From positions 310,001-374,000 of the forward strand of contig CALUXD010000001.1 in the NCBI GenBank assembly GCA_944324665.1: 64,000 nt of DNA, given 5' to 3'. This DNA comes from Candidatus Proelusimicrobium volucris (lineage in GTDB: Bacteria; Elusimicrobiota; Elusimicrobia; Elusimicrobiales; Elusimicrobiaceae). Of this stretch, positions 525-61,768 are shown piece by piece; within the stretch, counting starts at the first letter, position 1, and each line of letters begins with the position of its first letter. Below the pieces are notes generated by a model that saw nothing but the letters and a program-made list of their open reading frames with translations, did no database searches and had not been told where the DNA came from. A program made the translations under genes and the position numbers.

Positions 525-530
525 TATAAT
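525..530 (+). promoter_or_regulatory. -10 hexamer of uvrB, leaderless spacing
   Basis: TATAAT ends exactly six bases before the uvrB ATG (537), so transcription would start at or next to the A of the start codon. No Shine-Dalgarno precedes the ATG and no good -35 is visible. This is one of eight such sites in the window. Confidence 0.5.
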
Positions 531-536
531 TATGTT

Positions 537-2555
537 ATGGGTATATTCAAATTAAGTTCGCCATTCCGCCCTTCGGGCGACCAGCCTAAAGCCATAGAGC
601 GGCTTACCGATAATATAAAAAAGGGCGTATCCCGCCAGACTTTGCTCGGCGTTACCGGTTCCGGCAAAACTTTTACCATGGCAAACGTAATCGAGAAAAT
701 GGAAAGGCCGGTATTGATAATGTCGCCCAACAAAGTGCTGGCCGCGCAGCTTTACAGCGAATTTAAACAGTTTTTCCCGGAAAACGCCGTGGAATATTTT
801 ATTTCCTACTACGACTACTATCAGCCCGAAGCTTATATCCCCCAAACCGATCTTTACATAGAAAAGGACGCCGCCATAAACGACCATATAGAAAAATTGC
901 GCCTTAAGGCGACGAATTCCCTCCTAAGCAGAAAAGACACTATCGTAGTAGCTTCGGTATCTTCCATTTATAATATAGGCTCGCCGGAAAGTTTCCAAAA
1001 ACTTAGGATACATCTTAAAATCGGGGAAAATCTTACCAGGACCGATTTCACCAAGCATCTTATCAAGATACAATACGAACGCAACGAAACGGAATTTATA
1101 CAGGGCAAATTCAGAATACGCGGCCCTTTTATAGACGTATTCCCGCCCTATTCGCAAAACGCTTTGCGGGTTAAGATAGAAGGCCCCATAATAAAATCCA
1201 TACAGGAAATACACCCTATTACCGGCGATGCGGTAAACGAAATTGAGGAAGTTTGGCTTTCGCCCGCAAAGCAGTTTGTATCCGAAGACGAAAAAATGGA
1301 AGAAGCCCTTAATTCCATAAGATTGGAATGCGCCGAGCGCGTAAAATTTTTCGAGCACACAAACAAACTTGTGGAAGCTCAGCGCATAAAACAGCGCACC
1401 GCTTACGATTTGGAAATGCTGGCACAGACCGGCTTCTGCCCCGGCATAGAAAACTACTCCCGCCAGCTGGAGCTGCGCGCACCCGGCAGCAGGCCGAACT
1501 GCCTGTTTGACTATTTCAAACGATATGACGATTTTATCGTATTTATAGACGAATCGCATGTGGCCGTCCCGCAAATCCGCGGCATGTACAACGGCGACAG
1601 AGCCAGGAAGCAAATGCTTATAGACTTCGGGTTCCGCCTGCCCAGCGCCTTGGATAACAGGCCGCTGCGCTTTGACGAATTTGAAAGCCTGCTGCCTTCC
1701 ACCGTTTTCGTGTCCGCCACGCCCGGGCCCTATGAGTTAAGCATAAGCGGCAATAATATAGTGGAACAAATAATCCGCCCTACGGGGCTGGTGGATCCGC
1801 CCGTAAAACTTCTGCCCGCGGAAGGACAAATAAACGATTTGCTCTTGCGCATAGAAGACAAAACCCGAAAGAAACAAAGAACGCTTGTTCTTGCGCTAAC
1901 CAAAAAGACGGCGGAGGATCTTTCCGTTTTCCTTTTGGAAAAGGGAGTAAAGGCCCGATACTTGCACAGCGATATAGATTCCTTGGAAAGAATAGAAATT
2001 CTTAAAGATTTTTCGCGCGGAGTTTTTGACGTATTGGTCGGTATAAACCTCTTAAGGGAAGGCATCGACATTCCTCAAGTGGGTTTGGTGGCAATACTTG
2101 AAGCGGATAATGAAGGTTTTTTAAGGAATCAAACGACTTTAATACAAATCGCGGGGCGCGCGGCCAGGAACGTGGAAGGGGAAGTCTTACTGTACGCACA
2201 GAGGAAAACGCCCTCCATCAAATACGCCATGGACGAAATGGACCGCAGGCGCACCTTGCAGCAGGCTTACAACAAAGAGCATAATATCCAGCCTAAAACC
2301 ATACAGAAGGCGGAAGTGGAACTTAAGGAATTTGAACAGGAAAGCCAATCCAGCGCCTTATCTATGATACACACTTTAAGCGAAGTCGCGCCACAGGCAA
2401 AAAATCTGCCCGCTCTTATAAAAGAAACCGAACGGCAAATGCGCGATGCCGCCGACAATTTGAACTTCGAACTGGCCGCGCAGCTGCGCGACAGGCTGTT
2501 CGAACTTAAAGACATGGCGGTAAAAACTCCAAAAAAACCCGCCAAAAAAAAGTAA
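537..2555 (+). CDS. uvrB: Excinuclease ABC subunit B
   Basis: 672 residues, normal for UvrB, the damage-verifying helicase-like subunit of nucleotide excision repair that receives DNA from UvrA and recruits UvrC. Visible are Walker A GVTGSGKT (about 38-45), the tyrosine-rich beta-hairpin YYDYYQPEAYIP (91-102) that inserts between strands, a DESH Walker B near 340, helicase motifs in the C-terminal RecA domain (LREGIDIP and QIAGRAARN), and a C-terminal UVR motif (about 625-660) followed by a lysine-rich tail. The first ATG has no ribosome site and sits six bases after TATAAT, suggesting a leaderless message. birA follows 9 bases downstream. Identification is secure. Confidence 0.98.
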   Translation: MGIFKLSSPFRPSGDQPKAIERLTDNIKKGVSRQTLLGVTGSGKTFTMANVIEKMERPVLIMSPNKVLAAQLYSEFKQFFPENAVEYFISYYDYYQPEAYIPQTDLYIEKDAAINDHIEKLRLKATNSLLSRKDTIVVASVSSIYNIGSPESFQKLRIHLKIGENLTRTDFTKHLIKIQYERNETEFIQGKFRIRGPFIDVFPPYSQNALRVKIEGPIIKSIQEIHPITGDAVNEIEEVWLSPAKQFVSEDEKMEEALNSIRLECAERVKFFEHTNKLVEAQRIKQRTAYDLEMLAQTGFCPGIENYSRQLELRAPGSRPNCLFDYFKRYDDFIVFIDESHVAVPQIRGMYNGDRARKQMLIDFGFRLPSALDNRPLRFDEFESLLPSTVFVSATPGPYELSISGNNIVEQIIRPTGLVDPPVKLLPAEGQINDLLLRIEDKTRKKQRTLVLALTKKTAEDLSVFLLEKGVKARYLHSDIDSLERIEILKDFSRGVFDVLVGINLLREGIDIPQVGLVAILEADNEGFLRNQTTLIQIAGRAARNVEGEVLLYAQRKTPSIKYAMDEMDRRRTLQQAYNKEHNIQPKTIQKAEVELKEFEQESQSSALSMIHTLSEVAPQAKNLPALIKETERQMRDAADNLNFELAAQLRDRLFELKDMAVKTPKKPAKKK

Positions 2556-2558
2556 AAT
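2553..2558 (+). promoter_or_regulatory. -10-like hexamer six bases before birA
   Basis: TAAAAT overlaps the uvrB stop codon and ends six bases before the birA ATG, with no Shine-Dalgarno. It could give birA its own leaderless transcript, or birA may simply be read from uvrB mRNA. Confidence 0.35.
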
Positions 2559-2564
2559 TTATAT

Positions 2565-3128
2565 ATGGATTTTAAATTTACCGTAAACAGAACAATACAG
2601 CTTGAAGAAACTTCTTCCACCCAAGACGTGGCAAAAGAGCTTGCGCCTCTCTGCAAAGAGGACGGCATTTTAATAATCACAAAAAAGCAAACCGCGGGAC
2701 GCGGCCGCTTTGAAAGAGTTTGGGAGTCTAAAGAAGGCGGCTTGTATTTTAGCCTTATACTGCGCCCCAACGCCAAAACCATGCCGCTTGATCTGCTAAG
2801 CATAAAAGCGGGCAGGGCCGTGGCCCAAACGCTTAAAGACCTTTACAATATCAAAAGCAAAATAAAACTGCCCAACGACGTTTTGGCTTTCGACGGGAAG
2901 GAATACAAAAAAATATCCGGCATTTTGATAGAAACTTCCGCCCAGGCCGACGGTGGCCTTGATTGGATAGCACTGGGAATAGGCATCGACACCAACAATA
3001 CCCCGTCAAAGAAACTTAATGCCGCAAGCGTAAAACAACTGACAAAAAAGCAGGCGGACAATCAAGAACTGCTGCAAAAATTTCTGCAGAATTTCGCCAA
3101 AGAATACGTCAGCTGGAATATCGCTTAA
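2565..3128 (+). CDS. birA: Biotin--[acetyl-CoA-carboxylase] ligase, catalytic-domain-only
   Basis: 187 residues. The enzyme makes biotinyl-AMP and transfers biotin to a lysine of carboxylase/decarboxylase carrier proteins. The biotinyl-AMP loop GRGR (residues 45-48, followed by RVW) and the KISGILIET segment are present. The family's usual KWPND motif reads KLPND here (Trp to Leu). There is no N-terminal winged helix, so it is not the DNA-binding biotin-operon repressor. The C-terminal SH3-like domain is also reduced or absent, making it shorter than the usual 240 or so residues. It follows uvrB by 9 bases and ends just before a bidirectional terminator. Confidence 0.88.
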   Translation: MDFKFTVNRTIQLEETSSTQDVAKELAPLCKEDGILIITKKQTAGRGRFERVWESKEGGLYFSLILRPNAKTMPLDLLSIKAGRAVAQTLKDLYNIKSKIKLPNDVLAFDGKEYKKISGILIETSAQADGGLDWIALGIGIDTNNTPSKKLNAASVKQLTKKQADNQELLQKFLQNFAKEYVSWNIA

Positions 3129-3162
3129 TTTCCCGTACGATAATTTAAATGATATGACAAAC

Positions 3163-3189
3163 AAAAAGCCGCCCCTAAGGCGGCTTTTT
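3163..3189. terminator. Bidirectional terminator between birA and the receiver gene
   Basis: An 11-bp perfect stem (AAAAAGCCGCC/GGCGGCTTTTT, 3163-3173 and 3179-3189) with a 5-base loop has a T-run on both strands. It lies between the convergent ends of birA and the response-regulator gene. Confidence 0.9.
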
Positions 3190-3209
3190 ATCATTTAATT
3201 AATAAGAGA

Positions 3210-3587
3210 TTAAGCATCGCCCATAATGCGTTTCACTTTCTCCACGAGAACGCTGGTCCTGAAAGGTTTAAGGCAGAAGTCTTTTACCTGCGGATTGCCT
3301 GTAAACATCTTCTCCGATTCTTCCAACGCGGAAACTATCATTATGGAAGCGCCCTGCAAATCTTCGTCTTTTGACATCGCCGAAGCTATCGCCTTACCGT
3401 CATAGCCGGGCAACATTACATCCAGCAAGACCAAATGCGGCCTTACCTTCCTTATTAAATCAAGGGCGTTGCGGCCATTGTCGCAGAGATAAACTTCATA
3501 TCCGCTGCGGCTTAATATCATATTTAACAATTCAAGGATATCTCTTTCATCTTCGATAATAACTATTCTCTTCTTTAACTGTGTCAT
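3210..3587 (-). CDS. Single-domain response regulator (CheY-like receiver)
   Basis: 125 residues forming one receiver domain with no output domain. The acidic pair E12-D13, the phospho-acceptor D56 in LLDVMLPGYDG, the switch Ser85 (IVSALEE) and K107 in the LKPF motif are all in place, so it should be phosphorylated by a histidine kinase. No kinase or chemotaxis gene is nearby, so the partner is unknown. A good ribosome site (GGGGGA) precedes the ATG, and it ends before the shared terminator at 3163-3189. It could act as a phosphate shuttle or bind a protein target. Confidence 0.9.
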   Translation of the reverse strand: MTQLKKRIVIIEDERDILELLNMILSRSGYEVYLCDNGRNALDLIRKVRPHLVLLDVMLPGYDGKAIASAMSKDEDLQGASIMIVSALEESEKMFTGNPQVKDFCLKPFRTSVLVEKVKRIMGDA

Positions 3588-3653
3588 ATTTCCCCCATGT
3601 TGTTAAATTTATATAATTATTAAATCAATTATACTTTTTTTGGAATAAATTTT

Positions 3654-4397
3654 ATGGATAAAACCAATTTCCAAGCGACAACCTGGCAAACGCTGATTAA
3701 ATTTGAGAAGCAAAACGCTTTCTTTAAACCGAAAATCGGCGTACTCATAGGGCTTTCGGGCGGGGCAGATTCCGTAGCTTTGGCACATTTCGTCAAACAG
3801 CTCGGCTTAAAAAGGCAATTCCCCGTCTATGCCTGCCACGTTCACCACGGCCTTAGAGAAGCGGCCGATAAAGACGCCGCTTTCGCCAAAGATCTGGCTA
3901 AAAAATTAAATATCCCTTTCATTCTAAAAAAAGTAAACGTTAAGGCTTTGGCGAAAAAAGAAAACTTGAGCGTGGAGCACGCCGCCAGGAAAGCCCGCTA
4001 CGAGGCTCTTGTCCAAGCGGCTCAAAAATGCGGATGCAAGCAAATCGCTCTCGCGCATCATCTTGACGACAATGCCGAAACCTTCCTCTTAAATATTCTG
4101 CGCGGCACCAAAGCCAAAGGCCTGCTGGGCATTCCCATAAGAAGGCCGCTAGGCAAGCTGGAAATAGTAAGGCCTTTTTTATGCATTACCCGCGAGGAAG
4201 TAAACTCTTACATAAAAGAGCATAAACTTTCTTTCATTAACGATGAAACCAACTCCGACCAGGCTTATACCCGCAACTGGGTGCGCGGCACGCTGCTGCC
4301 CCTGTTGGAACAGAAACAGCCCCAAATCCGCAAACACATTAACGATATTTCGCAGGATTTATATAAGTATATAAGCCCTAAAACAGCAGATAAATAA
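3654..4397 (+). CDS. tilS: tRNA(Ile)-lysidine synthetase, minimal form
   Basis: 247 residues. TilS uses ATP and lysine to convert C34 of the CAU-anticodon tRNA-Ile to lysidine so that it reads AUA. The PP-loop SGGADS is at 35-40, and the characteristic HHLDDNAET and LLGIP segments follow. The protein stops soon after the TRNWVRGTLLPLL helix, so the substrate-recognition domains of the longer E. coli type (about 430 residues) are missing; short forms are known in other bacteria. A weak GGA precedes the ATG. The 3' end overlaps the convergent membrane-protein gene by 20 bases and no terminator is seen between them. Confidence 0.93.
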   Translation: MDKTNFQATTWQTLIKFEKQNAFFKPKIGVLIGLSGGADSVALAHFVKQLGLKRQFPVYACHVHHGLREAADKDAAFAKDLAKKLNIPFILKKVNVKALAKKENLSVEHAARKARYEALVQAAQKCGCKQIALAHHLDDNAETFLLNILRGTKAKGLLGIPIRRPLGKLEIVRPFLCITREEVNSYIKEHKLSFINDETNSDQAYTRNWVRGTLLPLLEQKQPQIRKHINDISQDLYKYISPKTADK

Positions 4398-4941
4398 TCA
4401 GCGCTAAAGCCGCACCGCCGGCCATAAACATACTTAATACCGCAGGCGCCAGCGAAAGCACAAGCGTAAAAAATGTCCTTACCTTGGAAAGGCCGTAAGC
4501 CTTGTTCATCATATACAAGATAAAACAAAGCTGCAAAACCGCCACTATCACTACAACAAAGCCTTTAAGAGCGGCCAATGCCGGCAAGGCCGCCTGCACT
4601 AAAGCGAAGCTGACCAAAAGCGTCAAAGAAAACTGCGAAAGCCCGATAAGCGTAAACAAACCCGCCGCACTGCCTTTGCCCGTAGAAAGCTCCAACAGCA
4701 AATGCGCGCTTGAAGCTACAAAAAAACCTATACATATATCGGCAAGCAATACCCCGAAAAACGCAAATGTAAAACCGAAATTACTCATTCCGCCCGCGCC
4801 TAAAGCCAGCATTATCATTATGCTTAAAGAGCCAGTAACATACCCCAAAAACGCCATAAACAGCGAGCGCGTTTTTATTATATCGTCAACGGCCTTTGAA
4901 GGCTCCGTAACAAAATCGTAAACCGTATTGATAAAATTCAT
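4378..4941 (-). CDS. Yip1-like multispan membrane protein, function unknown
   Basis: 187 residues. A short cytosolic N-terminus (MNFINTVYDFVTEPSKAV) is followed by five hydrophobic helices, an arrangement like Yip1-domain proteins. I cannot give a substrate or role. A ribosome site AAGGCGG precedes the ATG and the gene lies 9 bases after sppA on the same strand, so the two are probably cotranscribed, which hints at a membrane-proteostasis connection. Its stop lies inside the 3' end of tilS on the opposite strand. Confidence 0.7.
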   Translation of the reverse strand: MNFINTVYDFVTEPSKAVDDIIKTRSLFMAFLGYVTGSLSIMIMLALGAGGMSNFGFTFAFFGVLLADICIGFFVASSAHLLLELSTGKGSAAGLFTLIGLSQFSLTLLVSFALVQAALPALAALKGFVVVIVAVLQLCFILYMMNKAYGLSKVRTFFTLVLSLAPAVLSMFMAGGAALALIIYLLF

Positions 4942-4950
4942 AGAACCGCC

Positions 4951-6021
4951 TTAATACGTCCACAGATACGAAACTTTCGGCGTAGTAAAATCATCTATCT
5001 TGGAAGAAAGCCCCAATTTGTTTTCCATAGACGCGCCGCTCATATAAATCAAATCCATAAAATTATTAGGGCGTCCGGACAATAATTTAATGTCTTTTAT
5101 TCCCGTCAGCTCCGACAACAACGCTTGAGCCGTCTCTTCCCCGCCCAAAGCGTCTATCATACCGATTTCCTTGGCGCGGGCGCCGGTAAAAACACGCCCG
5201 TCGGCGTATATCGGCAGCATTTGGTTGTCTACGTTCGGTCTGCCCTGCTTAACCGCTTGGTAAAATTGCTGATAAGTTTCGTTTATCATTTCCTGCAGGA
5301 GAGCGGCCTCCTCTTCCGTCATCGGGCGGTAGGCTGAGCCTATGTCCTTATGCTTGCCCGATTTGACGGGCGTAACTTTTATGCCCAATTTATCGAATAA
5401 ACCCTCTATATTGTTGGCCTGCATAATGACGCCGATGGAACCCGTCATCGTACCGGGCTGGGCGACTATTTTGTCCGCCGCCATCGCCACGTAGAAGCCG
5501 CCGCTTGCCGCGACGTCCCTAAACAAAGCGACTACGGGTTTATTCTTGGACTTAAAAAATAAAATCGAATTGTAAATATCCTGCACCGCGGCCACCGTTC
5601 CGCCGGGCGAATTTATATCCAGCAAGAGCGCTTTTACTTCCTTTTTATCGGCAAGCTCCCTTATCCTCTTGGATATGGCCGAAGCGCTGTTTTGTTTGGA
5701 GAAAAATCCATTGTCGCCGCCTTCTTGTATAATACCCCTTATTTTTACCACCGCGGCGCCTTCTTCCGCAGAGAGTTTTTTAAACAAAGATTCCCCTTTG
5801 CCTGCAGCCGCCGCGCCTTCCTCTTTGCCGGAATCGGCCAAACGCACCGTTTTTCCCGGCGTAAGCGCCAAGTACAAGCCACTGATCATAGACAAAGTAA
5901 AAACCGCGGTCAAAACGGTCAGCCAAATCTTTATGGCGCGGCCTTCTTTTTTAGTTTTCGTTTCTTTAGGCTGTTCTTCCGCCAGCAAGGCCTGAATTGG
6001 ATTTTCTTTATTTTCTTCCAT
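4951..6021 (-). CDS. sppA: Signal peptide peptidase SppA, 36K type
   Basis: 356 residues from ATG 6021; a TTG one codon upstream is the alternative start. SppA is a membrane-anchored serine protease that degrades signal peptides left in the membrane after secretion. A charged N-terminus is followed by one membrane helix (31-53) and then the S49 protease fold. Catalytic Ser173 lies in VAASGGFYVAMAADKI and the likely general base is Lys220 in KSGKHKDIG, the short single-domain arrangement also found in Bacillus. CGGGAG is the ribosome site. It is first in a two-gene unit with the Yip1-like protein and diverges from dapA. Confidence 0.95.
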   Translation of the reverse strand: MEENKENPIQALLAEEQPKETKTKKEGRAIKIWLTVLTAVFTLSMISGLYLALTPGKTVRLADSGKEEGAAAAGKGESLFKKLSAEEGAAVVKIRGIIQEGGDNGFFSKQNSASAISKRIRELADKKEVKALLLDINSPGGTVAAVQDIYNSILFFKSKNKPVVALFRDVAASGGFYVAMAADKIVAQPGTMTGSIGVIMQANNIEGLFDKLGIKVTPVKSGKHKDIGSAYRPMTEEEAALLQEMINETYQQFYQAVKQGRPNVDNQMLPIYADGRVFTGARAKEIGMIDALGGEETAQALLSELTGIKDIKLLSGRPNNFMDLIYMSGASMENKLGLSSKIDDFTTPKVSYLWTY

Positions 6022-6040
6022 CAAAAATACTCCCGATTAA

Positions 6041-6068
6041 AGGTTAACTGAAATTAAATTGTCGTCAA
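6041..6068 (-). promoter_or_regulatory. Possible promoter for sppA
   Basis: On the minus strand TTGACG (6063-6068) is followed by a 16-base spacer and TAACCT (6041-6046), about 20 bases before the ribosome site of sppA. The -35 is good and the -10 is weak. Confidence 0.4.
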
Positions 6069-6121
6069 CTTTAATTATATCAATAAAATGATACAATTTA
6101 CTTAAGCAAAAGGGAGGGCTT

Positions 6122-10675: not shown

Positions 10676-10681
10676 CGAAAG

Positions 10682-10707
10682 CCGGCTTTTTAAAAAGCCG
10701 GTTTTTT
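10682..10707 (+). terminator. Terminator of the DAP operon
   Basis: A perfect palindrome CCGGCTTTTT/AAAAAGCCGG (10682-10701) is followed by six T, just after the Mur ligase stop. The central A/T bases make the loop. Confidence 0.85.
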
Positions 10708-10762
10708 GAGTGTGATATTTTATCTTGCCAAGTGTAGTATTAATGAAGGCGGTTAAGTTATT

Positions 10763-13072: not shown

Positions 13073-13843
13073 TTAAATGTTTTCCAAATCCTTTTCGCTC
13101 ATATCATCCCTAATGCCGAAGCGAGTCAGAGAAAAGTCGTATTTTATCGGATCTTCGGGGCAAAGCTTCGCGAAGGAAGCGGAAATTTCCAAAGCTGTTT
13201 TCATATCCGCCTGATTGCGCTTTGTAAGCCCCAGCATTTTTCCTACCCTGTGCATATGAACATCCAGCGGTACGATAAGAGCGGATGCAGGTATTTCGCG
13301 CCAGCAGCCCGGGTCCACTTCGTCTTTGCGTACGCACCAGCGCAAACACAAATTAAGTCTTTTTAAAGCGCTGTTCTTTGCAGGGTTGGGGATAAGAGTA
13401 TCCATTTTGCCGCAGCTTCTTAACTTTGCGGCAAAGGCGCGCTCCGCAAACAAAAAATCGCCCTTCTCCTTATAGAAAGAAAGGAACATCTTTTCCAAAC
13501 TGCCGTACGCCTTAAGCGCCGCCCTAACAGCCAAAAGCAGGTTTATAAGTTCTTCTTCAGTGGTAAAGCGGTATTTGAAACCTTTAAACAGTTTTTGCAA
13601 ATCCTCACGCGAAGTTTTTAAAATAAAATCTTTGGGCGAAGGCCCCAAAATTGATAAAATCTTATCAACGGTTTTTATTATCTGCTTTACATTGCCGTAA
13701 GCGAAACTGGCGGCAATTAAAGCGACTATTTCCTTATCCGCGTCGGATTTGTAATTATGAACAAACTGCAGCGGATCGGGCGATATGAGTTCAAATTTAT
13801 TATATTTATGATATATATTATCCAAACACTCGCGCGTTATCAT
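13073..13843 (-). CDS. TIGR02757 (DUF2400) family protein
   Basis: 256 residues. The sequence matches my memory of the TIGR02757 family: an N-terminal PLQFVHNYKSDADKEIVALIAASFAYGNVKQI segment, then RLNLCLRWCVRKDEVDPGCW, and a C-terminal PLDVHMHRVGKMLGLTKR block with conserved Asp and His, reminiscent of the helix-hairpin-helix DNA-glycosylase fold. The biochemical function is unknown to me. The ATG has no ribosome site but sits six bases after TAGAAT. It diverges from murE with only 35 bases between the two start codons. Confidence 0.8.
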   Translation of the reverse strand: MITRECLDNIYHKYNKFELISPDPLQFVHNYKSDADKEIVALIAASFAYGNVKQIIKTVDKILSILGPSPKDFILKTSREDLQKLFKGFKYRFTTEEELINLLLAVRAALKAYGSLEKMFLSFYKEKGDFLFAERAFAAKLRSCGKMDTLIPNPAKNSALKRLNLCLRWCVRKDEVDPGCWREIPASALIVPLDVHMHRVGKMLGLTKRNQADMKTALEISASFAKLCPEDPIKYDFSLTRFGIRDDMSEKDLENI

Positions 13844-13849: not shown

Positions 13850-13855
13850 ATTCTA
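13850..13855 (-). promoter_or_regulatory. -10 hexamer, leaderless spacing (TIGR02757-family gene)
   Basis: On the minus strand TAGAAT is followed by exactly six bases and the ATG at 13843. There is no Shine-Dalgarno. Confidence 0.45.
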
Positions 13856-17041: not shown

Positions 17042-17800
17042 TTAATCAAATATTTGCGCGGCCGCGGCTTGCGTAGCCGGTATTTCCGAGAGAATTTGCT
17101 TTAAAGTTTGATTCTTTAAATACGGGGCAAGCGTCGTATTGGACGCCAAAAGCTGCTTTGTCCTAGCTGGATTGCCAAGATAATATTTACCGGCGGGGCT
17201 GTTGAATATATACGTCATCAACTTGCTTTTAAGAAGGCTTCTTAAAAGCATTTCATTTCTTAAAACGCCCTGCACGGCAGGCCCGTTGACAAATTTATCT
17301 ATATCAAAACTCTGCGAAGAAATAAGATCGTACAACTTTAGATAATTGGAAGTCATTTCGTGCACATCCTTGCGGGAGGCAAAACCTCTAAGCACGTCTT
17401 CATTGTCGAAAACGACCTCTATAACCTGCGGAGTATTCAAATTCGTCATTACGGTATTGGACAGCGAAAAGGGCGTCGCGCCGACATTTTCCAAATCCTG
17501 CGGCGTCATCATTACAATATTGTTTATGTTTACCGACACTATCGCCGTACCTATATTGCTGAATTTACCGCGCATACCCTCGCCCGTTTGAGCGCCTTGC
17601 GCCAGCTCCTGATAGGAAATTTCGTCACGTTCCACAAATTCAAGATCGTCGGATTCAAAAGATTTCAGTTGCTCTTGCGTTATTGCGTCTTCCGGCGACT
17701 GCGCCTTCTTGGCGTACCACATTACCGGTACAAGCAACAAAAGGGCGAATACCGCCACCCCCGCTACTTGAAGAATATATGTCTGTTTTTCTTTATCCAT
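17042..17800 (-). CDS. Membrane-anchored protein of unknown function
   Basis: 252 residues. I do not recognise a family. One membrane helix (about 10-28) follows a short charged N-terminus, so the bulk is probably periplasmic. An acidic stretch (about 35-70) comes first, and then a long mostly helical part with many Asn and Leu, including IGTAIVSVNINNIVMMTPQD and LKSKLMTYIFNSPAGKYYLG. No cysteine is present in the outer part. The codon usage looks like its neighbours. It stands alone between tRNA-Gly and the divergent yjbQ, with a TAAAAT hexamer six bases before the ATG and no ribosome site. It may be lineage-specific. Confidence 0.75.
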   Translation of the reverse strand: MDKEKQTYILQVAGVAVFALLLLVPVMWYAKKAQSPEDAITQEQLKSFESDDLEFVERDEISYQELAQGAQTGEGMRGKFSNIGTAIVSVNINNIVMMTPQDLENVGATPFSLSNTVMTNLNTPQVIEVVFDNEDVLRGFASRKDVHEMTSNYLKLYDLISSQSFDIDKFVNGPAVQGVLRNEMLLRSLLKSKLMTYIFNSPAGKYYLGNPARTKQLLASNTTLAPYLKNQTLKQILSEIPATQAAAAQIFD

Positions 17801-17806: not shown

Positions 17807-17812
17807 ATTTTA
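17807..17812 (-). promoter_or_regulatory. -10 hexamer, leaderless spacing (unknown membrane protein)
   Basis: On the minus strand TAAAAT is followed by exactly six bases and the ATG at 17800. No Shine-Dalgarno is seen. Confidence 0.45.
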
Positions 17813-17857: not shown

Positions 17858-18274
17858 ATGAAATCCCATACCGTATATATTACATTAAGAACGCCGGAAA
17901 GATATCAAATAGTAAACATAACCGATCAAGTGCAGGAAGCACTGTCAGACAGCGGCATAAAAGAAGGTTTATGTCTGGTAAATTCAATGCATATCACTTC
18001 CAGCGTGTTCATAAACGATAATGAGCGCGGCCTTCATCAAGATTTTATAAAATGGGTTGAGAAGCTCGCCCCTTACGACCCCAACGGCTATCAGCATAAT
18101 CTTACGGGCGAAGACAACGGCGACGCGCATTTAAAACGTACTATTATGGGGAGGGAAGTCGTCGTGGCGGTAACAAACGGCAGGCTTGACTTCGGCCCGT
18201 GGGAAGAAATCTTCTACGGCGAATTTGACGGGCAAAGAAACAAAAGAATCCTTATCAAAATCATAGGAGAATAA
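17858..18274 (+). CDS. YjbQ/UPF0047 family protein
   Basis: 138 residues, the family's usual size. The motifs [36 protein letters not shown] with conserved His, and [21 protein letters not shown] are characteristic. E. coli YjbQ has low thiamine-phosphate synthase activity, but the physiological role is not settled. A strong AGGAG ribosome site precedes the ATG. The GTG of the thioesterase gene follows one base after the stop and a lipoprotein follows that, so the three form one operon ending at 19175-19203. Confidence 0.92.
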
Positions 18275-26716: not shown

Positions 26717-27890
26717 CTATCTTTTTAAAAACTTCGGCATGGTTTTTAAGTTCGCGCGTAATTATGAAATGTTCCTTCACATATTCATGCCCTGTAGCCG
26801 CCAACCTTAAAGACAAAGCCCTATCCGTCAACAGCCGTTTTATGTTTAGAACAAAACTTTCTTTGTCCCCGCAAAGCAAACCCGTTTTATTGTTTATTAT
26901 CTGATATTTTATTCCGCCTACGTCGCTGGCCGCGACGGGCCGCTTCTTCCACAGCGCTTCCGTTATGGAAAGGCCGAAACTTTCGCTGAAACTCTTTTGC
27001 ACTACGACGTCCGCCGCGCTTTGAAGAGCCGCTATTTCATAATCGTGCCTATTTATCGAGAGCAGAATTATATCTTTGTGCCCGCCGGCATAATCCTTCA
27101 ACTCCTGGTATAAAGCCGCGGCGTTTATATCGTCGGGCGCGAAACCGCCCGCATACACCAATGTCGAAGGGATTTCCTCAGACACTTCTTTGAAAACGTC
27201 TATCAGCCCGAAGGGATCTTTTACCCTGTCAAAACGCGATACCTGTAAAATTATGGGTTTATCGCAGGGGATATTATAATTCTTCAAAACCGATAGCTGA
27301 CCTTCCCTCTCTACAAAAGTATTCTTCACCGAACAGGGATCTATGGAAGGCAATATATAGTCGACACCCCTATTTAAAGGACGATGGCTTTGCGCCGAAG
27401 GGAAAATAACCTCATCGCAATCCTCAATATATGGCCTTAAAAACTCCCAAACGTCTTTGTTCGCGCGCGAAATATCAAAATGACATCGATATATCTTTTT
27501 TATTCCCTTTATCTTAGACGCCGCTATTAAAGCGTGAAAATCGTGCAGATATAAAACGTCACAATCCAAAGGAAGGGCCAAACTAGAGGCCGCAGCGGCA
27601 AAACTATCCAGCTCCGCCCTGCTTACGCAGTTCATGCTAAGGGAAAGCGCGTCGGTAATCTTTTTGCCGAGAACGAAAAAGTCTTTTTCGGCCTCTATCG
27701 CACGCCAAAAGCAGTCAAGCCCCAACTCTCGGAAATAGCCCTCCAGCGTGCAAGCCAGTTCGCTTACCCCGCTGCCGTAAAGCGCAGGCGTAAGCATGGC
27801 AAGGCGAAAATCCGGAAGTTTTTTGTACTGTTCCTTAAGATCCGCTACCGCTATGCCGTATTTGCTGTCCAGTATCGAAAGTTTGTCCAT
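26712..27890 (-). CDS. GT4 glycosyltransferase, trehalose synthase (TreT)-like
   Basis: 392 residues with a GT-B fold. The N-terminal YGSGVSELACTLEGYFRELGLDCFWRAIEAEKDFF aligns with the TreT pattern of glycine-rich loop, then W-x-x-I-x-x-E/D-x-x-FF. The C-terminal half has LQVSRFDRVKDPFGLIDVF, ADVVVQKSFSESFGLSITEALWKKRPV and DVGGIKYQI, all close to archaeal and bacterial TreT, which makes trehalose from NDP-glucose and glucose. The precise donor and acceptor are not certain. TACAAT six bases before the ATG suggests a leaderless start. It diverges from a GH13 enzyme 89 bases away, suggesting joint alpha-glucan or trehalose metabolism. Confidence 0.8.
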   Translation of the reverse strand: MDKLSILDSKYGIAVADLKEQYKKLPDFRLAMLTPALYGSGVSELACTLEGYFRELGLDCFWRAIEAEKDFFVLGKKITDALSLSMNCVSRAELDSFAAAASSLALPLDCDVLYLHDFHALIAASKIKGIKKIYRCHFDISRANKDVWEFLRPYIEDCDEVIFPSAQSHRPLNRGVDYILPSIDPCSVKNTFVEREGQLSVLKNYNIPCDKPIILQVSRFDRVKDPFGLIDVFKEVSEEIPSTLVYAGGFAPDDINAAALYQELKDYAGGHKDIILLSINRHDYEIAALQSAADVVVQKSFSESFGLSITEALWKKRPVAASDVGGIKYQIINNKTGLLCGDKESFVLNIKRLLTDRALSLRLAATGHEYVKEHFIITRELKNHAEVFKKIV

Positions 27891-27896: not shown

Positions 27897-27902
27897 ATTG
27901 TA
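27897..27902 (-). promoter_or_regulatory. -10 hexamer, leaderless spacing (TreT-like gene)
   Basis: On the minus strand TACAAT is followed by exactly six bases and the ATG at 27890. There is no Shine-Dalgarno. Confidence 0.45.
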
Positions 27903-52771: not shown

Positions 52772-52861
52772 ACAGGGGGGAAGGGCCTTGTTTGGAAAAG
52801 CCTCTTTTTTTGGTATAATATATACAGTAGTAAAGATTCTACGGCAAGAGTAAAGGAAATT

Positions 52862-54259: not shown

Positions 54260-54261
54260 AA

Positions 54262-55212: not shown

Positions 55213-55252
55213 AAATTTCAAATAAAAAACAGAAGTTGGAGGAAGCAGCACA

Positions 55253-55915: not shown

Positions 55916-55926
55916 TCTTGCATGTG

Positions 55927-55957
55927 AAGGGGCGCATTTTGTGCGCCCCTTTCTTTT
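55927..55957 (+). terminator. Terminator between rplY and pth
   Basis: AAGGGGCGCA/TGCGCCCCTT (55927-55936, 55942-55951) with a 5-base loop and TCTTTT after it; pth follows 42 bases on. Confidence 0.85.
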
Positions 55958-55998
55958 GGAAATACGGCCTGCTTAAAGCAGGTATTTTTTAGGATTTT

Positions 55999-56574
55999 AT
56001 GGGCGAAATTTATTTAATAGCTGGTTTGGGCAATCCCGGCCGTCAATATGAGCATACGCGCCATAACGCTGGTTTTATGGCTTTGGATGTCTTTGCCGAA
56101 CGGTTTAATCCCTCGTGGGAGAAATGGCAGAACGACAAAGGCCTGCTTGCTAAAGCGGAGCTTGGCGCCAATACCATTTATTTGCTTAAACCGATGACTT
56201 ATATGAATTTATCCGGCCATGCGGTAAGGGGGGTAACTTCTTTTTATAAAATAAAGCCCAAGAATATTCTGATAATTTTTGACGATATGAACCTTCCTTT
56301 GGGTGCCGTACGCCTAAGAGCCAAGGGCAGCGCCGGCGGGCAAAACGGAATGCGCCATATTATAGAACAGCTGGGTACCCAGGATATAGCGCGCCTTAGA
56401 ATCGGCATAGGCCCGAGGCCGGAATATTTTGAGGGGAAGGATTTTGTCTTATCAAAATTTGGAGAAGAGCAGAAGCCTCTTTTAAAGGAGGCATTACTCA
56501 AGGCCGATGCCGCACTTTACGATTTTATCGTCGGCGGGATTGACGCCGCTATGACTAAAGCCAATGCCAAATAA
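55999..56574 (+). CDS. pth: Peptidyl-tRNA hydrolase
   Basis: 191 residues. It recycles peptidyl-tRNA that dropped off ribosomes. Catalytic His22 in YEHTRHNAGF, Asn12, MTYMNLSG and the FDDMNLPLGAVRLRAKGSAGGQNGMRHI segment with its conserved Asp are present. The ribosome site AGGA is only 4 bases before the ATG. Terminators lie on both sides. Confidence 0.97.
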   Translation: MGEIYLIAGLGNPGRQYEHTRHNAGFMALDVFAERFNPSWEKWQNDKGLLAKAELGANTIYLLKPMTYMNLSGHAVRGVTSFYKIKPKNILIIFDDMNLPLGAVRLRAKGSAGGQNGMRHIIEQLGTQDIARLRIGIGPRPEYFEGKDFVLSKFGEEQKPLLKEALLKADAALYDFIVGGIDAAMTKANAK

Positions 56575-56601
56575 ACTTTTAACGGCAAGCTAATTTCGCT
56601 A

Positions 56602-56632
56602 AAGGCCCCGCTTATCTTAAGCGGGGCCTTTT
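56602..56632 (+). terminator. Terminator after pth
   Basis: AAGGCCCCGCTT/AAGCGGGGCCTT (56602-56613, 56619-56630) with a 5-base loop and TTGTT downstream. Confidence 0.88.
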
Positions 56633-56740
56633 GTTAAAAGCCTTTTGTGCCGTGAAGAACGAAATTGGCAATTATTTCGGGAATAAAATAATTTAATTCC
56701 TTTTTGCAAAAAGCTAAGCAAAGCAAAAATATTTAAAATA

Positions 56741-56768
56741 ACCCCCCCCTGTTTAAGCAGGGGGGGGT
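56741..56768 (-). terminator. Hairpin with eight-base G/C runs after the aminotransferase gene
   Basis: ACCCCCCCCTG/CAGGGGGGGGT (56741-56751, 56758-56768) around a 6-base loop. On the minus strand it is followed by TTATTTTAAATATTTTT, a weak T-run. It lies just past the DegT-family gene and is its probable terminator. Confidence 0.6.
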
Positions 56769-56783
56769 GTCTTAAAAGAATTA

Positions 56784-57911
56784 TTATTTGTTATAAAATT
56801 CTTTTATTTTGCCGCAGACTATATCGATTTGTTCTTCCGTAATTTCCGGGAACATAGGAATAGAAAGAACTTCCTGCGCCGCGGCTTCTGTGTGGGGGTA
56901 ATCCTGCGCTTTGCAGTTTAAGTGAGCGTAGCAGGGCTGCTTATAGAGCGGTACTGGATAGTAAACGGCATTGCCGATATTATTCTCTTTCAAGAAAGCG
57001 CTTAGAGCGTCGCGGTCTTTTACGCGAATTGTAAAGACATAATAACTTTGGCTCCAGCCTTCGGGCGCCTGAGGCGGGAGAGTTATCCCCTTTACGGAGC
57101 TTAATTTCTTGCGGTAGAGTTCTGCCGCTTTTGCGCGGTTTTCCGTCCATTTTGCGAGATGTTTAAGTTTTACGTCCAATATGGCGGCCTGGATTTCGTC
57201 CATTCTTAAGGTGGAGCCTTCCCTATCGTACTCATAGGCTTTACCCAAGGAGCGTCCGCTGTGTCTTATGCTGGCGCAGGCGTCGGCTATTCCCTTATTG
57301 TTGGATACTACCGCGCCGGCATCGCCGCAGGCGCCGAGGTTCTTGCTGGGATAAAAGCTAAATGCTCCGGCATCGCCCCAAGTGCCGGTATATTTGCCCG
57401 CGCATAAGGCCAAGTGGCTTTGGGCGCAGTCTTCTATAACTTTAAGATTGTGTTTCTTGGCGATGGCCATAATTTCCGGCATATTAGCTGGATAGCCGTA
57501 TAGGTGTACGGGAACGATGGCTTTTGTTTTAGAAGTGATTTTGCGCTCTATGTCTTTTGGGTCAAGATTATAGGTTAGGGGGTCAATATCGGCAAAGACG
57601 AAATCCGCACCCGTAAGAGTTATTGACGTGGTCGTAGCAACAAAGGTAAAGGGAGTGGTGATAACTTCGTCGCCTTTGCCTATGCCCGCGGCCATAAGCG
57701 CTATTTGTATTGCGCTTGCACCAGAAGAGCAGGTAATACAATGCTCGGCATTAAGAGCTTTGGCGAAATCCGCTTCAAATTGCTGTGTCTTGGGTCCCAA
57801 AAGCCATTTCATCGAGTTTAAGGCGTCCAAGGCGGCTTTGTTAATTTCTTCTTTTAAACTTTCGTGCTGTTTTTGCAAATTAAATAAGGGTACTGCAGTA
57901 TTGTTTGTCAT
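56784..57911 (-). CDS. DegT/DnrJ/EryC1/StrS-family sugar aminotransferase
   Basis: 375 residues. PLP-dependent fold; Lys190 in FSFYPSKNLGACGDAG forms the internal aldimine. SSGASAIQIALMAAGIGKGDEV, TTPFTFVATTTSI, the VHLYGYPANM and EDCAQSH blocks are typical. Family members aminate keto sugars for LPS, capsule or surface glycans. The exact sugar cannot be told. Start codon is 2 bases after the MgtC-family gene, so it is the last gene of a three-gene unit with DUF1646 and MgtC, an odd pairing with transport-like membrane proteins. Confidence 0.92.
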   Translation of the reverse strand: MTNNTAVPLFNLQKQHESLKEEINKAALDALNSMKWLLGPKTQQFEADFAKALNAEHCITCSSGASAIQIALMAAGIGKGDEVITTPFTFVATTTSITLTGADFVFADIDPLTYNLDPKDIERKITSKTKAIVPVHLYGYPANMPEIMAIAKKHNLKVIEDCAQSHLALCAGKYTGTWGDAGAFSFYPSKNLGACGDAGAVVSNNKGIADACASIRHSGRSLGKAYEYDREGSTLRMDEIQAAILDVKLKHLAKWTENRAKAAELYRKKLSSVKGITLPPQAPEGWSQSYYVFTIRVKDRDALSAFLKENNIGNAVYYPVPLYKQPCYAHLNCKAQDYPHTEAAAQEVLSIPMFPEITEEQIDIVCGKIKEFYNK

Positions 57912-57913
57912 AA

Positions 57914-58555
57914 TTATTTATCCAATGATTTTATTTCTTTTAACATTATAAGTTCTTTAAAGCTTTCGGTGAAAGCTTTCTTGGACATATTTATTATCAT
58001 TTTGATAACGAACAGTCCGTCTTCCTTAAACAAATCCTCTTTTATTATTTCCGCTTTATGTTTTTTAAGAGTGTCGTTTATTTTTTGCACTATATCGGGT
58101 GAAGGCTCGCACTTTATGGTGAGAGAATCGTATAATCTTACATAATCAAAGCTGTTCATAAGCTTGCGGATAAACAGCTGCAGTATCAAGACGAATATCG
58201 TGGCGGAACCAGCTATAATAAACTCGCCGTATCCCGCGGCCATGCCCACCGCCGCGACCAGCCATATCCCCGCCGCCGTAGTTAGGCCCGATATTTTGTT
58301 GCCGTCCCTGAGTATGGAACCCGCACCCAAAAAGCCGACGCCCGCCACTATTTGGGCCGCTATTCTCGCGGGATCGCCCCCGTAGTTAAAAGCCGAGGTT
58401 ATAGAAAGCAGCGTAAATACCGCCGAGCCCGCGCAAATTAAAGTGTTTGTCGCAAAGCCTGCGGGCTTATCGTGATATTGCCTCTCAAGGCCGATTACTC
58501 CGCCTAAGATTAAGGCGGCTAAAATTCTTATAATAATTTCTTCCGTTGTTATCAT
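57914..58555 (-). CDS. MgtC/SapB family membrane protein
   Basis: 213 residues. The N-terminal half has four membrane helices with IRILAALILGGVIGLERQYHDKPAGFATNTLICAGSAVFTLLS and the GAGSILRDGNKISGLTTAAGIW block that define MgtC/SapB. A cytosolic C-terminal part (about 140-213) resembles an ACT-like domain. MgtC proteins affect magnesium adaptation and inhibit F1Fo ATP synthase in pathogens; here the role is unknown. It follows DUF1646 with a one-base gap and precedes the DegT gene by 2. Confidence 0.9.
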   Translation of the reverse strand: MITTEEIIIRILAALILGGVIGLERQYHDKPAGFATNTLICAGSAVFTLLSITSAFNYGGDPARIAAQIVAGVGFLGAGSILRDGNKISGLTTAAGIWLVAAVGMAAGYGEFIIAGSATIFVLILQLFIRKLMNSFDYVRLYDSLTIKCEPSPDIVQKINDTLKKHKAEIIKEDLFKEDGLFVIKMIINMSKKAFTESFKELIMLKEIKSLDK

Positions 58556-58556
58556 A

Positions 58557-59606
58557 TCAATATTTGGACGCGACCGGCACTAGGTTTAGTATTACGAAAT
58601 AAACAAGCATTACCGCTATGCCTATGGGCAAAGCGTCTTTCGCCCACTCCTTGCTTTTTATTTTAAATTTGGACGCGCAGATAATATTGGGGATATTGCC
58701 CGGTATCAGAAAACCGCCCGATATTATTAAGGCCATAAGCAAAAATTCTATCTGTTTGTTTGTCATGCTTGGTACGATTTCCGCTGCGGCCAATGTGGCA
58801 TTATCCAAGATCGCCGAGATGGAGTTCGCCCAATAAAGCGCCCATTCCGGCAGTTTTAATATGCTTATTTCCGCCAAGGGCGTCAAACCTTGCCCGAAAA
58901 ACACCAAAGCCATTACAAACAGGAACACTTTAGCCGCTCTTACTAAAATATCTTTTTTGCTTTCGTGATCTACGCTTTGTTTGGTGAGGTTCTGGGGATC
59001 TTTTGTCCTGGCGGCCAACAACGAAAAAAGCAGTACGCCCGGCAATATAAACTCCCACAGCAAATTAAACAGATAGAAAAACCCCGCATTATGGGGTTCT
59101 TCCGCCAGTTTGCTGGTAACTATCGTGGAAAGCGGCTCGCCCAAAGGCGTGAGTACCGCGCCCATACCTATCGCGAAACAGCCCATAACTATTACGTGCA
59201 CGGTATCCCTTTTTGAGAGGCGCAAAGTCGCCGCTATTTCGCACAGTATCAAGGCGGCTATTATAGCCGTAATTACGCTTGATAAAAGCGATAAGACGAA
59301 AACGAATAAGACAATAGTGGGCTTTAGTCCGATTTTATCTTCAACCACTTCTATAAATTTTGTTATAGCTTTTCTGAACTGTCGGAACAGCAATCCCGTA
59401 ATGAGGACCGCCAAAGATATTGCTATCGGCTCTTTAAGAGCATGGGTTACAAGTTTCCAGCTCCACAATCCCGTAATGCTTACGGCCAATATGCCGAGCA
59501 CGAATAAAAAGGCTTCCAATTCCTTTTCCACCGCATGTATGGTGAAAGGGAGGAACAAAGCCAAGCATATTATAATGCTTAACAGAATGATTACCGTTAT
59601 CGTCAT
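58557..59606 (-). CDS. DUF1646 family membrane transporter-like protein
   Basis: 349 residues with about ten hydrophobic helices. It resembles the DUF1646 proteins of the ion-transporter superfamily (SVITAIIAALILCEIAATLRLSKRD, GMGAVLTPLGEPLSTIV, LISGGFLIPGNIPNIICA-like turns with Gly-Pro loops as in NhaD/arsenite-type permeases). A cation or anion exchange function is likely but the substrate is unknown. TATAAT six bases before the ATG with no ribosome site suggests a leaderless start. It leads the DUF1646-mgtC-degT operon. Confidence 0.8.
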   Translation of the reverse strand: MTITVIILLSIIICLALFLPFTIHAVEKELEAFLFVLGILAVSITGLWSWKLVTHALKEPIAISLAVLITGLLFRQFRKAITKFIEVVEDKIGLKPTIVLFVFVLSLLSSVITAIIAALILCEIAATLRLSKRDTVHVIVMGCFAIGMGAVLTPLGEPLSTIVTSKLAEEPHNAGFFYLFNLLWEFILPGVLLFSLLAARTKDPQNLTKQSVDHESKKDILVRAAKVFLFVMALVFFGQGLTPLAEISILKLPEWALYWANSISAILDNATLAAAEIVPSMTNKQIEFLLMALIISGGFLIPGNIPNIICASKFKIKSKEWAKDALPIGIAVMLVYFVILNLVPVASKY

Positions 59607-59612
59607 AAGTTT

Positions 59613-59618
59613 ATTATA
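59613..59618 (-). promoter_or_regulatory. -10 hexamer, leaderless spacing (DUF1646 gene)
   Basis: On the minus strand TATAAT is followed by exactly six bases and the ATG at 59606. There is no Shine-Dalgarno. Confidence 0.5.
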
Positions 59619-59640
59619 TCAAAAACATTTAGGCGCAAAT

Positions 59641-59673
59641 AAAAAAGCCCGCCTTTTTTGGCGGGCTTTTTTT
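59641..59673. terminator. Terminator after the outer-membrane protein gene
   Basis: AAAAAAGCCCGCC/GGCGGGCTTTTTT (59641-59653, 59660-59672) with T-runs on both strands. On the minus strand it follows the OMP stop by about 15 bases. Confidence 0.9.
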
Positions 59674-59686
59674 GTGTCGCGTCAAA

Positions 59687-60340
59687 TTATAACTTTACGC
59701 CTACTTTCAAAAGAAGCGAAATATCGGAGAGGTAACTCGTATCGGCAAATTTATTATCGTCCATCCACCAGTGGTTGTATCTGGCTTCCAAACCCCAAAT
59801 AAAGATGTCGTTTAAGTCGCTTTCAACGCCCAATCCTACGTATAAAGCGGGTTTGGTGGCGGATTGTTCTTCTTCTCCAAAAACATCGGATTCCATTTTC
59901 CCTTTATATTTTGCGAAACCAACTCCCACGGGTATATAAAGCCTGGTTTTGGCATCGGGCGCGAAGTTGAACTTACCGGCCAGAAACATTGCATATTTAT
60001 CGGCGGAAGTTTTTATCGTTTCCGAAAAACCCATAGCGGAGAGAGAGTATTCTGCGGCATCATAATTTGTCGCGTTAAATTCCAATCCCAAACCGATATT
60101 TTGGGTAAGGTAATGCATAATTTGCAGACCGTAGGTCGGGCCGACGTCGCCATAGTCAAAATTTTCATCGCCAAAAGAGGCGCCGACATTCGTTGGGGAA
60201 AACCCGTATTCCATGGTGGGAACGGCGAAACCGCCCAAAACTGAAATATGGGTCATACCCTTGTCTATACCTTGGTCTATACCCGCGAAAGCCGGGGTGA
60301 AAAGGACTAATAATACTGCGCTGATGAGCAATTTTTTCAT
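59687..60340 (-). CDS. Outer-membrane beta-barrel protein
   Basis: 217 residues. A signal peptide (1-19, ending TPAFAG) is followed by alternating hydrophobic/polar strands rich in Tyr, Gly and Asn. LGVESDLNDIFIWGLEARYNHWWM and the final residues SLLLKVGVKL, which end in a hydrophobic residue after a strand, fit an OmpA/OmpW-type eight-stranded porin-like barrel. An AAGGAG ribosome site precedes the ATG. No substrate can be assigned. It supports a diderm envelope. Confidence 0.82.
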   Translation of the reverse strand: MKKLLISAVLLVLFTPAFAGIDQGIDKGMTHISVLGGFAVPTMEYGFSPTNVGASFGDENFDYGDVGPTYGLQIMHYLTQNIGLGLEFNATNYDAAEYSLSAMGFSETIKTSADKYAMFLAGKFNFAPDAKTRLYIPVGVGFAKYKGKMESDVFGEEEQSATKPALYVGLGVESDLNDIFIWGLEARYNHWWMDDNKFADTSYLSDISLLLKVGVKL

Positions 60341-60395
60341 TGATAATCTCCTTAATTTGCAACTTGTCCAAAATATTTTAGCAAAAACGGATTAG

Positions 60396-61019
60396 TTAAA
60401 ATACTCCGCTGTAAGAAGGATCCCAAGATTTGTAATCTATTACCGTAGTTTGCTTTTTCTTGCTTTTGCCTATTGCGCCTTGCTGTGCGTTAAGCATAGT
60501 TTGAGGCCAAAAACCTTGCGCTTTTAACACTTGTTCGGCTACCTCTCTAAAGGCGCCCCTGCCGCCGGGTGTTTGGGTTATGTAGAGGCAGCAGTCTTTT
60601 ACTTCTTGGCGGCTGTTAGCCACGGCACAGGGCAGGCCGACTTCTTTTAGGGCGGGTATATCGATAAAATCGTCGCCTATAAAGATTATTTCCTCCGCTT
60701 TAAGCCCGCTTCGCTTGATGAAATCCTGCAAAGGCGGCAGTTTGGAGAGGAAATTATAATACAAAAAATCCATACCCAAGGAGGCGGCCCTTCTTTCCGT
60801 AGCGGGTGCGTTGCCGCCGGTAATAATACCGGTTATAATGCCGCAGTCCCTGAGCATATGGAAGGCTATGCCGTCATAGGCGCTGAATTTCTTTATTTCT
60901 ACCGTTTTGCCTTCCGGCGTTACGAAGAAGTTCATCGTGGAATCCGTCAAAACTCCGTCGACATCGGTAAGAACGGCTTTGATTTTTTTGAATTTATCTG
61001 AAAGATCTTTTTCTGTCAT
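60396..61019 (-). CDS. kdsC: 3-deoxy-D-manno-octulosonate 8-phosphate phosphatase (KdsC-like HAD hydrolase)
   Basis: 207 residues. The HAD motif DVDGVLTD (Asp19 nucleophile, Asp21 acid/base), the IITGGNAPATERRA motif, Lys in the third motif region, and IGDDFIDIPALKEVGLPCAVANS are those of the tetrameric C0-type KdsC, which makes Kdo for the LPS inner core. About 40 residues at the C-terminus (including KKKQTTVIDYKSWDPSYSGVF) exceed the usual length and have no known role. TAAGAT lies six bases before the ATG. It diverges from a CsgG-like lipoprotein gene with 53 bases between starts. Confidence 0.9.
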   Translation of the reverse strand: MTEKDLSDKFKKIKAVLTDVDGVLTDSTMNFFVTPEGKTVEIKKFSAYDGIAFHMLRDCGIITGIITGGNAPATERRAASLGMDFLYYNFLSKLPPLQDFIKRSGLKAEEIIFIGDDFIDIPALKEVGLPCAVANSRQEVKDCCLYITQTPGGRGAFREVAEQVLKAQGFWPQTMLNAQQGAIGKSKKKQTTVIDYKSWDPSYSGVF

Positions 61020-61025
61020 AGCTAT

Positions 61026-61031
61026 ATCTTA
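61026..61031 (-). promoter_or_regulatory. -10-like hexamer, leaderless spacing (kdsC)
   Basis: On the minus strand TAAGAT is followed by exactly six bases and the kdsC ATG (61019). There is no Shine-Dalgarno. Confidence 0.4.
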
Positions 61032-61060
61032 TTAAATTTAGGCGTAAAGGTAAAAAATTA

Positions 61061-61066
61061 TATAAT
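61061..61066 (+). promoter_or_regulatory. -10 hexamer, leaderless spacing (CsgG-like lipoprotein)
   Basis: TATAAT followed by exactly six bases and ATG 61073; no Shine-Dalgarno. Confidence 0.5.
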
Positions 61067-61072
61067 GATATT

Positions 61073-61768
61073 ATGAGAAATATAATCATATTGATCCTTT
61101 GTTTTTTCGTTTCGGCCTGCGCGCCAAAGACTTATATAAGCAAAAGTTATAACTTTAATAACTTGAAGAGGATAGGCGTCTTGGCTTTCGCCTCCCCCGA
61201 TGATACTTTTAGCGGTGCCGAAAACCTTTTTACCAAAAGCCTTATAAAATACGGATATACCGTAGTTGAAAGAGCACAAATAGAGGAAGTGTTGCAAGAG
61301 CATAATTTATCTACTACGTCCTATCTTTCGCCGGCGGTAACGCGCCAATTGGGCAAAGTGTTGGGAGTAGATGTTCTTTTGACTGGCGAAATCACGTCCT
61401 ATATGCCCGAGCAGAAACAGCTTGTGTATAATGTCAGCAGACGGACTTCGAGCGAGCCGGTATTTTCCAAAGAAGTGGTAAAGAATTCTGACGGCAATGT
61501 CCAAATAAGAAGCACTTACGCGGGCCAGCAACACACCAGCAGCAAAGATATTTATCCCGTAGAATACACGATTTACGCACAAGTGGGCGTGGTGGCCAAG
61601 ATGATAGACGTCGATACCGCCGAAATTATTTGGGTGGGCGACGATACGAAAGAGGGCGTCAGCGGGTTGGATGCGCTCTCTTCAAGCGCGAACGCGCTGA
61701 TAAAAAGTTTTGACAAGAAAGTTCGTAAAGCAAAGCAGGAATATCAGAAAGACCAGGAAAAGCTATGA
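61073..61768 (+). CDS. CsgG-like outer-membrane lipoprotein
   Basis: 231 residues. A signal peptide with lipobox VSAC (Cys16) gives a lipid anchor. The body reads LKRIGVLAFASPDDTFSGAENLFTKSLIKYGYTVVERAQIEEVLQEHNL and later LGKVLGVDVLLTGEITSY, which is the layout of the CsgG/curli-secretion and related lipoprotein fold. There is no curli cluster, so secretion is not implied; similar proteins of unknown function are widespread. It overlaps by 4 bases the small membrane protein that links it to serS. A leaderless start is likely (TATAAT six bases before ATG). Confidence 0.78.
   Translation: MRNIIILILCFFVSACAPKTYISKSYNFNNLKRIGVLAFASPDDTFSGAENLFTKSLIKYGYTVVERAQIEEVLQEHNLSTTSYLSPAVTRQLGKVLGVDVLLTGEITSYMPEQKQLVYNVSRRTSSEPVFSKEVVKNSDGNVQIRSTYAGQQHTSSKDIYPVEYTIYAQVGVVAKMIDVDTAEIIWVGDDTKEGVSGLDALSSSANALIKSFDKKVRKAKQEYQKDQEKL

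Follow-up and report, generated by a model that had tools for sequence, protein, structure and literature searches.

Do genes that start six bases behind a TATAAT-like hexamer, and that show no Shine-Dalgarno (SD) sequence, give rise to messenger RNAs without a leader? The question is raised by a stretch of 64,000 nucleotides from the gut bacterium Candidatus Proelusimicrobium volucris (here called the window), which covers positions 310,001 to 374,000 of contig CALUXD010000001.1 (C1:310001-374000 in an assembly of 1,496,100 bases and 4 contigs) and in which an initial annotation had proposed eight leaderless gene starts, each with the hexamer TANNNT exactly six bases before the ATG. All eight hexamers are present when the sequence is read, and TANNNT occurs at this distance (gap 6) in 7 of the 27 leading ATG genes of the window, i.e., of those whose upstream neighbor lies on the opposite strand or at least 60 nt away, compared with about 2 expected (background rate 0.072; P=0.0025). 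The data of the window alone are suggestive, and it is the whole genome that decides. As judged from its sequence, about 90 transcription units, corresponding to roughly 15% of the leading genes, are very probably leaderless and served by ordinary sigma-70-type promoters, next to genes led by SD sequences.

For the analysis of the genome, 1,229 genes were called by means of a coding model based on in-frame hexamers, which ignores upstream sequence and prefers ATG over GTG or TTG, and genes less than 25 nt from their upstream neighbor were regarded as operon-internal. The more restrictive hexamer TAnAAT precedes 51 of the 575 leading ATG genes at gap 6 and another 24 at gap 7 (P=1e-30 and 2e-8, respectively), against a background in the same genes with a mean of 6.0 and a maximum of 11 at gaps 15-44. 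Corresponding values were obtained for TATAAT (24 and 12; background 2.9) and for TANNNT (71 and 38; background 29.5), and a search of the raw DNA for the pattern TKNTANAAT...TATG, which makes no use of gene calls, yielded 45 matches at gap 6 vs 1-13 at other gaps. The genome-wide search suggested by the initial annotation thus reveals a peak at six bases, and gap 6 stands as the main class; the spacing is not identical throughout, since a smaller second class exists at gap 7, of which the window held no example. No comparable peak is seen among the 506 operon-internal genes (TAnAAT 5 times at gap 6 and once at gap 7), and the motif is confined to the first genes of transcription units.

The sequences around the hexamers carry the marks of a promoter rather than those of a ribosome-binding signal. 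Sites of TAnAAT chosen only by their gap of 6 or 7 are preceded by a second element, WAAWTTgn, at -20 to -13 (A at -18 with a frequency of 0.75, T at -15 with 0.79, and G at -14 with 0.40), and nothing resembling it is found upstream of 441 control TAnAAT sites from intergenic DNA in non-promoter orientation. When leadered promoters were located by scanning with the model built from the leaderless sites, the same combination of -10 hexamer and WAAWTTg element turned out to be common to leaderless and leadered genes, being weaker in the latter, as expected from a mixture with chance matches. Unseeded motif discovery by expectation maximization on the region from -120 to -17 of SD genes converged on coding sequence and was discarded. 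A TTGACA-like -35 box was sought at spacers of 8-39, none of which stands out, and only a faint T is visible at -35; the -35 boxes described as weak in the initial annotation are indeed not strong, and in fact none is detectable, the WAAWTTg element abutting the -10 hexamer instead. The distances between promoter and start codon are bimodal: model matches of at least 7 bits occur in the 575 leading genes 62 times at gap 6 and 26 times at gap 7, then almost vanish at gaps 11-14 (5 vs 28 expected, P=1e-7) and return in a broad mode at gaps 15-45 (about 7 at each gap between 15 and 40). It follows that leaders some 5-8 nt in length are avoided, being too long for a leaderless start and too short for an SD sequence. 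Leadered TAnAAT sites, where no ATG follows, carry A seven bases after the hexamer in 59% of the cases, and the preferred +1 therefore coincides with the position taken by the A of the ATG in leaderless genes, 83% of which show T at -1. Among tandem leaderless genes, 10 of 28 have a terminator upstream, compared with 29 of 162 SD genes, the distances being scattered.

An SD sequence is present in 2 of the 93 genes of the leaderless set vs 300 of the 482 other leading genes, a scarcity with a partly mechanical cause, as the hexamer takes up the space in which an SD sequence would lie. The proposal that two classes of start coexist is supported, and operon-internal genes show SD sequences as well. 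ATG serves as start codon in 88 of 90 genes of the leaderless class and in 575 of the 621 leading genes overall. The 5' ends of leaderless genes do not differ significantly from those of leadered SD genes in A-richness (P=0.13) or folding (P=0.09). Several DNA-repair genes belong to the leaderless class, namely uvrA (C3:107119-109950), uvrB (C1:310537-312555), xth (C2:127242-128009), and ogt (C1:548492-548965).

The arrangement is conserved in relatives, with some mobility. The relatives of UvrB assign the genome to the Elusimicrobiaceae, with 96% identity to a protein of an uncultured Elusimicrobiales bacterium. Ahead of uvrB, TATAAT or TACAAT is kept six bases from the ATG in about 11 relatives with 69-96% protein identity and otherwise unrelated flanks, and uvrB is operon-internal or without the motif in several others. 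For kdsC, TANNNT-N6-ATG is kept in all 12 loci of the same genus, in which the start codon is shifted against the protein alignment by up to 6 codons in the upstream and up to 2 in the downstream direction, so that promoter and ATG move together. Co-aligned orthologs with less than 90% identity are concordant in their start class (2 × 2 table of 18, 15 and 4, 109; P=1e-10). Several ortholog pairs are discordant, a leaderless gene facing an SD-led ortholog, which is the kind of switching between related genomes reported in the text of Zheng et al. (2011; PMC3160421).

A census of the raw pattern at gap 6, compared with the same pattern at gap 11 and with its reversed form, was carried out in 80 genomes of the Elusimicrobiota. 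The 26 genomes of the Elusimicrobiaceae contain 1233 matches vs 128 at gap 11 and 110 for the reversed pattern (an about 10-fold excess), and the 5 genomes of a sister family in the same order 191 vs 42 and 25 (about 6-fold). No excess was found in a family of 23 genomes, presumably the Endomicrobiaceae (287 vs 274 and 216), nor in all 44 genomes outside the class taken together (574 vs 578 and 463); a further family of 8 genomes gave 134 vs 130 and 84, and five other families of the class, with one genome each, showed counts of only 0-8, which are too few to judge. From this distribution by family, the trait is a feature of the order Elusimicrobiales and not of the phylum Elusimicrobiota. Within the Elusimicrobiaceae, one genome assembled as a single contig of 1,643,562 bases (G032) gave a weaker signal (38 vs 12 and 13). 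The highest count at gap 6 comes from a 2.1-Mb genome of the sister family (G028; 104 vs 23 at gap 11), which may be the richest in leaderless genes of the order. A promoter logo from outside the Elusimicrobiales comprised only 17 sites and was uninformative. As to more distant controls, TAnAAT was absent at gaps 6 and 7 from 411 kb of loci mostly belonging to other phyla (125 leading genes) and from 200 kb of Escherichia coli K-12, and 150 kb of the Deinococcus radiodurans plasmid MP1 gave TAnnnT 3 times at gap 6 and twice at gap 7, vs a background of 0.24, and thus recovers the known leaderless signal.

The simplest objection is that AT-rich intergenic DNA yields TANNNT frequently and that matches were picked, and the background of 7% per position in the window, together with an excess of only P=0.0025 there, would agree with it. 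It is refuted by the genome-wide peak of TAnAAT and by the census, in which the excess recurs in the 26 Elusimicrobiaceae and the sister family and is absent from the equally AT-rich Endomicrobia, which leaves chance with a negligible probability. A less trivial alternative regards the hexamer as a translational signal of leadered transcripts, i.e., an A/U-rich site of the S1 type or a non-SD site like that of the Bacteroidetes. The lack of SD sequences at these genes fits this idea, and A/U-rich upstream signals do exist in other phyla (PMC9581028); however, operon-internal genes need ribosome-binding sites too and lack the motif, the spacing is exact to the base, the same motif acts as promoter 15-45 nt before SD genes, and neither the preference for T at -1 and A at +1 nor the near-absence of leaders of 5-8 nt would be expected, which makes it very improbable. 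Equally improbable is a third explanation, in which the promoters are real and the called ATG is wrong, the true start codon lying further downstream behind an SD sequence on a leadered messenger RNA. Wrong start calls are common in annotation, and the profile matches of birA, DUF2400, and KdsC begin 12-23 residues into the called proteins. In contrast, the called methionine lies only about 1-7 residues from the beginning of the profile match in UvrB (match from residue 4), DUF1646 (from residue 7), Ndk, GlyQ, FolD, SmpB, HisS, UvrA, Xth, RbfA, TatD, and PlsY, which leaves no space for an SD-led start further downstream; the joint shift of promoter and ATG in kdsC likewise speaks against it.

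Several points weigh against leaderless transcription of these units nevertheless. The gene caller was home-made, so the start sites depend on its calls, and the mechanical part in the scarcity of SD sequences has been mentioned above. The table of concordance between orthologs is dominated by copies of uvrB. The transcription start site (TSS) is predicted from the sequence and may be displaced from the ATG by 1-2 nt. Finally, a cause of the trait on the side of the ribosome was sought and none was found. The 16S rRNA ends with CCUCCUUUA, and this CCUCC-containing end, IF3, and an S1-like protein are all present, so nothing in the ribosome appears to mark the organism as adapted to leaderless messages; these components therefore indicate a normal SD system to which a leaderless class is added. 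The match of the S1-like protein (C2:142600-143613; open frame of 402 amino acids) to the rpsA model, which has 516 positions, is limited to positions 4-347, and S1 may be shortened.

Taking the leaderless reading as the preferred one, we infer the following for the TSS, the sigma factor involved, and the route of translation. RNA polymerase carrying a sigma-70-type factor would recognize WAAWTTgn-TANAAT in the absence of a clear -35 box and would begin transcription seven bases behind the -10 hexamer, at the A that opens the ATG and has T at -1. The resulting messenger RNA would possess neither leader nor SD sequence, and ribosomes with fMet-tRNA presumably initiate on its 5'-terminal AUG, by analogy with other bacteria. 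In the other genes, this promoter would be combined with an SD sequence and a leader about 10-40 nt long. The primary sigma factor retains an ordinary region 4.2. RpoD is matched strongly in all 80 Elusimicrobiota genomes, although even the best match, with 352.5 bits, stays below the curated TIGR02393 cut-off of 354 bits.

As to the individual sites in the window, seven of the eight proposed cases are leading genes, stand as leaderless candidates, and show no SD core at -17 to -4, in agreement with the initial annotation. On the forward strand, the -10 hexamer TATAAT of uvrB at 525..530 precedes the ATG at 537, the A of which is the putative TSS, and is adjoined by a T/A-rich element, TTATTTA (518..524, at -19 to -13), that matches WAAWTTgn only partially. 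The eighth case, TAAAAT at 2553..2558 (forward) before the birA ATG at 2565, is doubtful and probably no example: birA is operon-internal, starting 9 nt past the uvrB stop, the uvrB stop codon supplies the TAA of the birA hexamer, and more distant relatives have an AAAGGA-type SD sequence in front of it. Four further sites are located on the minus strand, namely TAGAAT at 13850..13855, preceded by AAATTGC, for the DUF2400/TIGR02757 gene (ATG at 13843; promoter score 11.9), TAAAAT at 17807..17812 for a gene of 252 amino acids (ATG at 17800; score 9.5) next to a divergent SD gene starting at 17858, TACAAT at 27897..27902 for a TreT-like glycosyltransferase gene (ATG at 27890; score 11.0), and TATAAT at 59613..59618 for a DUF1646 membrane protein gene (ATG at 59606; score 11.3). 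The last two sites point away from each other: TAAGAT at 61026..61031 (minus strand) was read before kdsC (ATG at 61019), and TATAAT at 61061..61066 (forward) belongs to a gene for a CsgG-like lipoprotein (ATG at 61073; score 13.8), a leaderless ortholog of which is present in genome G034. These divergent genes (61019-61073) accommodate two leaderless promoters within 53 nt of intergenic space, and a comparable pair with 33 nt in between is formed by the ogt-like gene and its divergent neighbor (C1 548492-548965 and 548999-549682). In the kdsC homolog loci L231, L233, L236, and L243, a GC-rich hairpin or T-run leads directly into the -10 hexamer (TTTTTGCTATAAT), so that the terminator of the upstream gene and the next promoter seem fused in some of them; the -10 gaps are 7-9 there, not 6.

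Leaderless genes of a related kind are known from other bacteria. The text of Zheng et al. (2011; PMC3160421) describes TA-led genes without SD sequences, in which the first T of TANNNT or TATAAT lies about 12 bp upstream of the start codon, a consensus of TAtaaT in genomes of medium GC content, and, for Actinobacteria and Deinococcus-Thermus, a leaderless share of 20-40% of all genes. The genes studied here resemble them in the distance of the hexamer, the lack of SD sequences, and the SD-led genes alongside, but differ in their share of about 15% of leading genes and in the WAAWTTg element upstream. In Deinococcus-Thermus, the -10 hexamer adjacent to the open reading frame acts as promoter with a specific spacing and a dispensable -35 box, according to the text of Zhong et al. 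(2025; PMC12340547). The fixed spacing and the missing -35 box are shared with that system, for which transcription was tested and in which the middle of TANNNT is uninformative, whereas TAnAAT with an adjoining A/T element is known here from the sequence. Low-GC Firmicutes such as Lactococcus are described as having leaderless promoters with TG before the hexamer and a weak or missing -35 box (PMC3160421), which likewise are extended -10 promoters, but TG at -15/-14 occurs in only 33% of the present sites, the stronger part being WAAWTT at -20 to -15. The group list in the text of Zheng et al. does not name Elusimicrobia and contains "one unclassified" genome that is not identified there, the text on the scan of the bacterial domain by Zhong et al. 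does not name them either, and PMC10783764 treats Elusimicrobia and Endomicrobia only with regard to their anti-SD sequence. A literature search for leaderless or Shine-Dalgarno together with Elusimicrobi, with partial coverage and exclusive of supplements, returned no description. The GeneMarkS-2 study reportedly classified about 5000 genomes. The leaderless class is therefore of a known kind and apparently undescribed for this lineage, a prior listing of Elusimicrobium being possible in the tables of GeneMarkS-2 or of Zheng et al.

It is an even question whether the Elusimicrobiales evolved a leaderless class of their own, absent from the sister classes and built on the housekeeping promoter with a WAAWTTg element, joined directly to the -10 hexamer, in place of the -35 box, in which case about 20 bp of promoter plus the ATG would form a self-sufficient unit that is movable relative to the coding sequence. 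Elusimicrobium minutum has a type strain (Pei191), which opens the finding to direct testing. It would extend leaderless transcription to a deep-branching phylum and provide a promoter consensus for a nearly all-uncultured group, along with a rule for annotating starts in its genomes, and the sharp gain or loss of the trait within one phylum bears on whether leaderless starts are ancestral or were acquired repeatedly.

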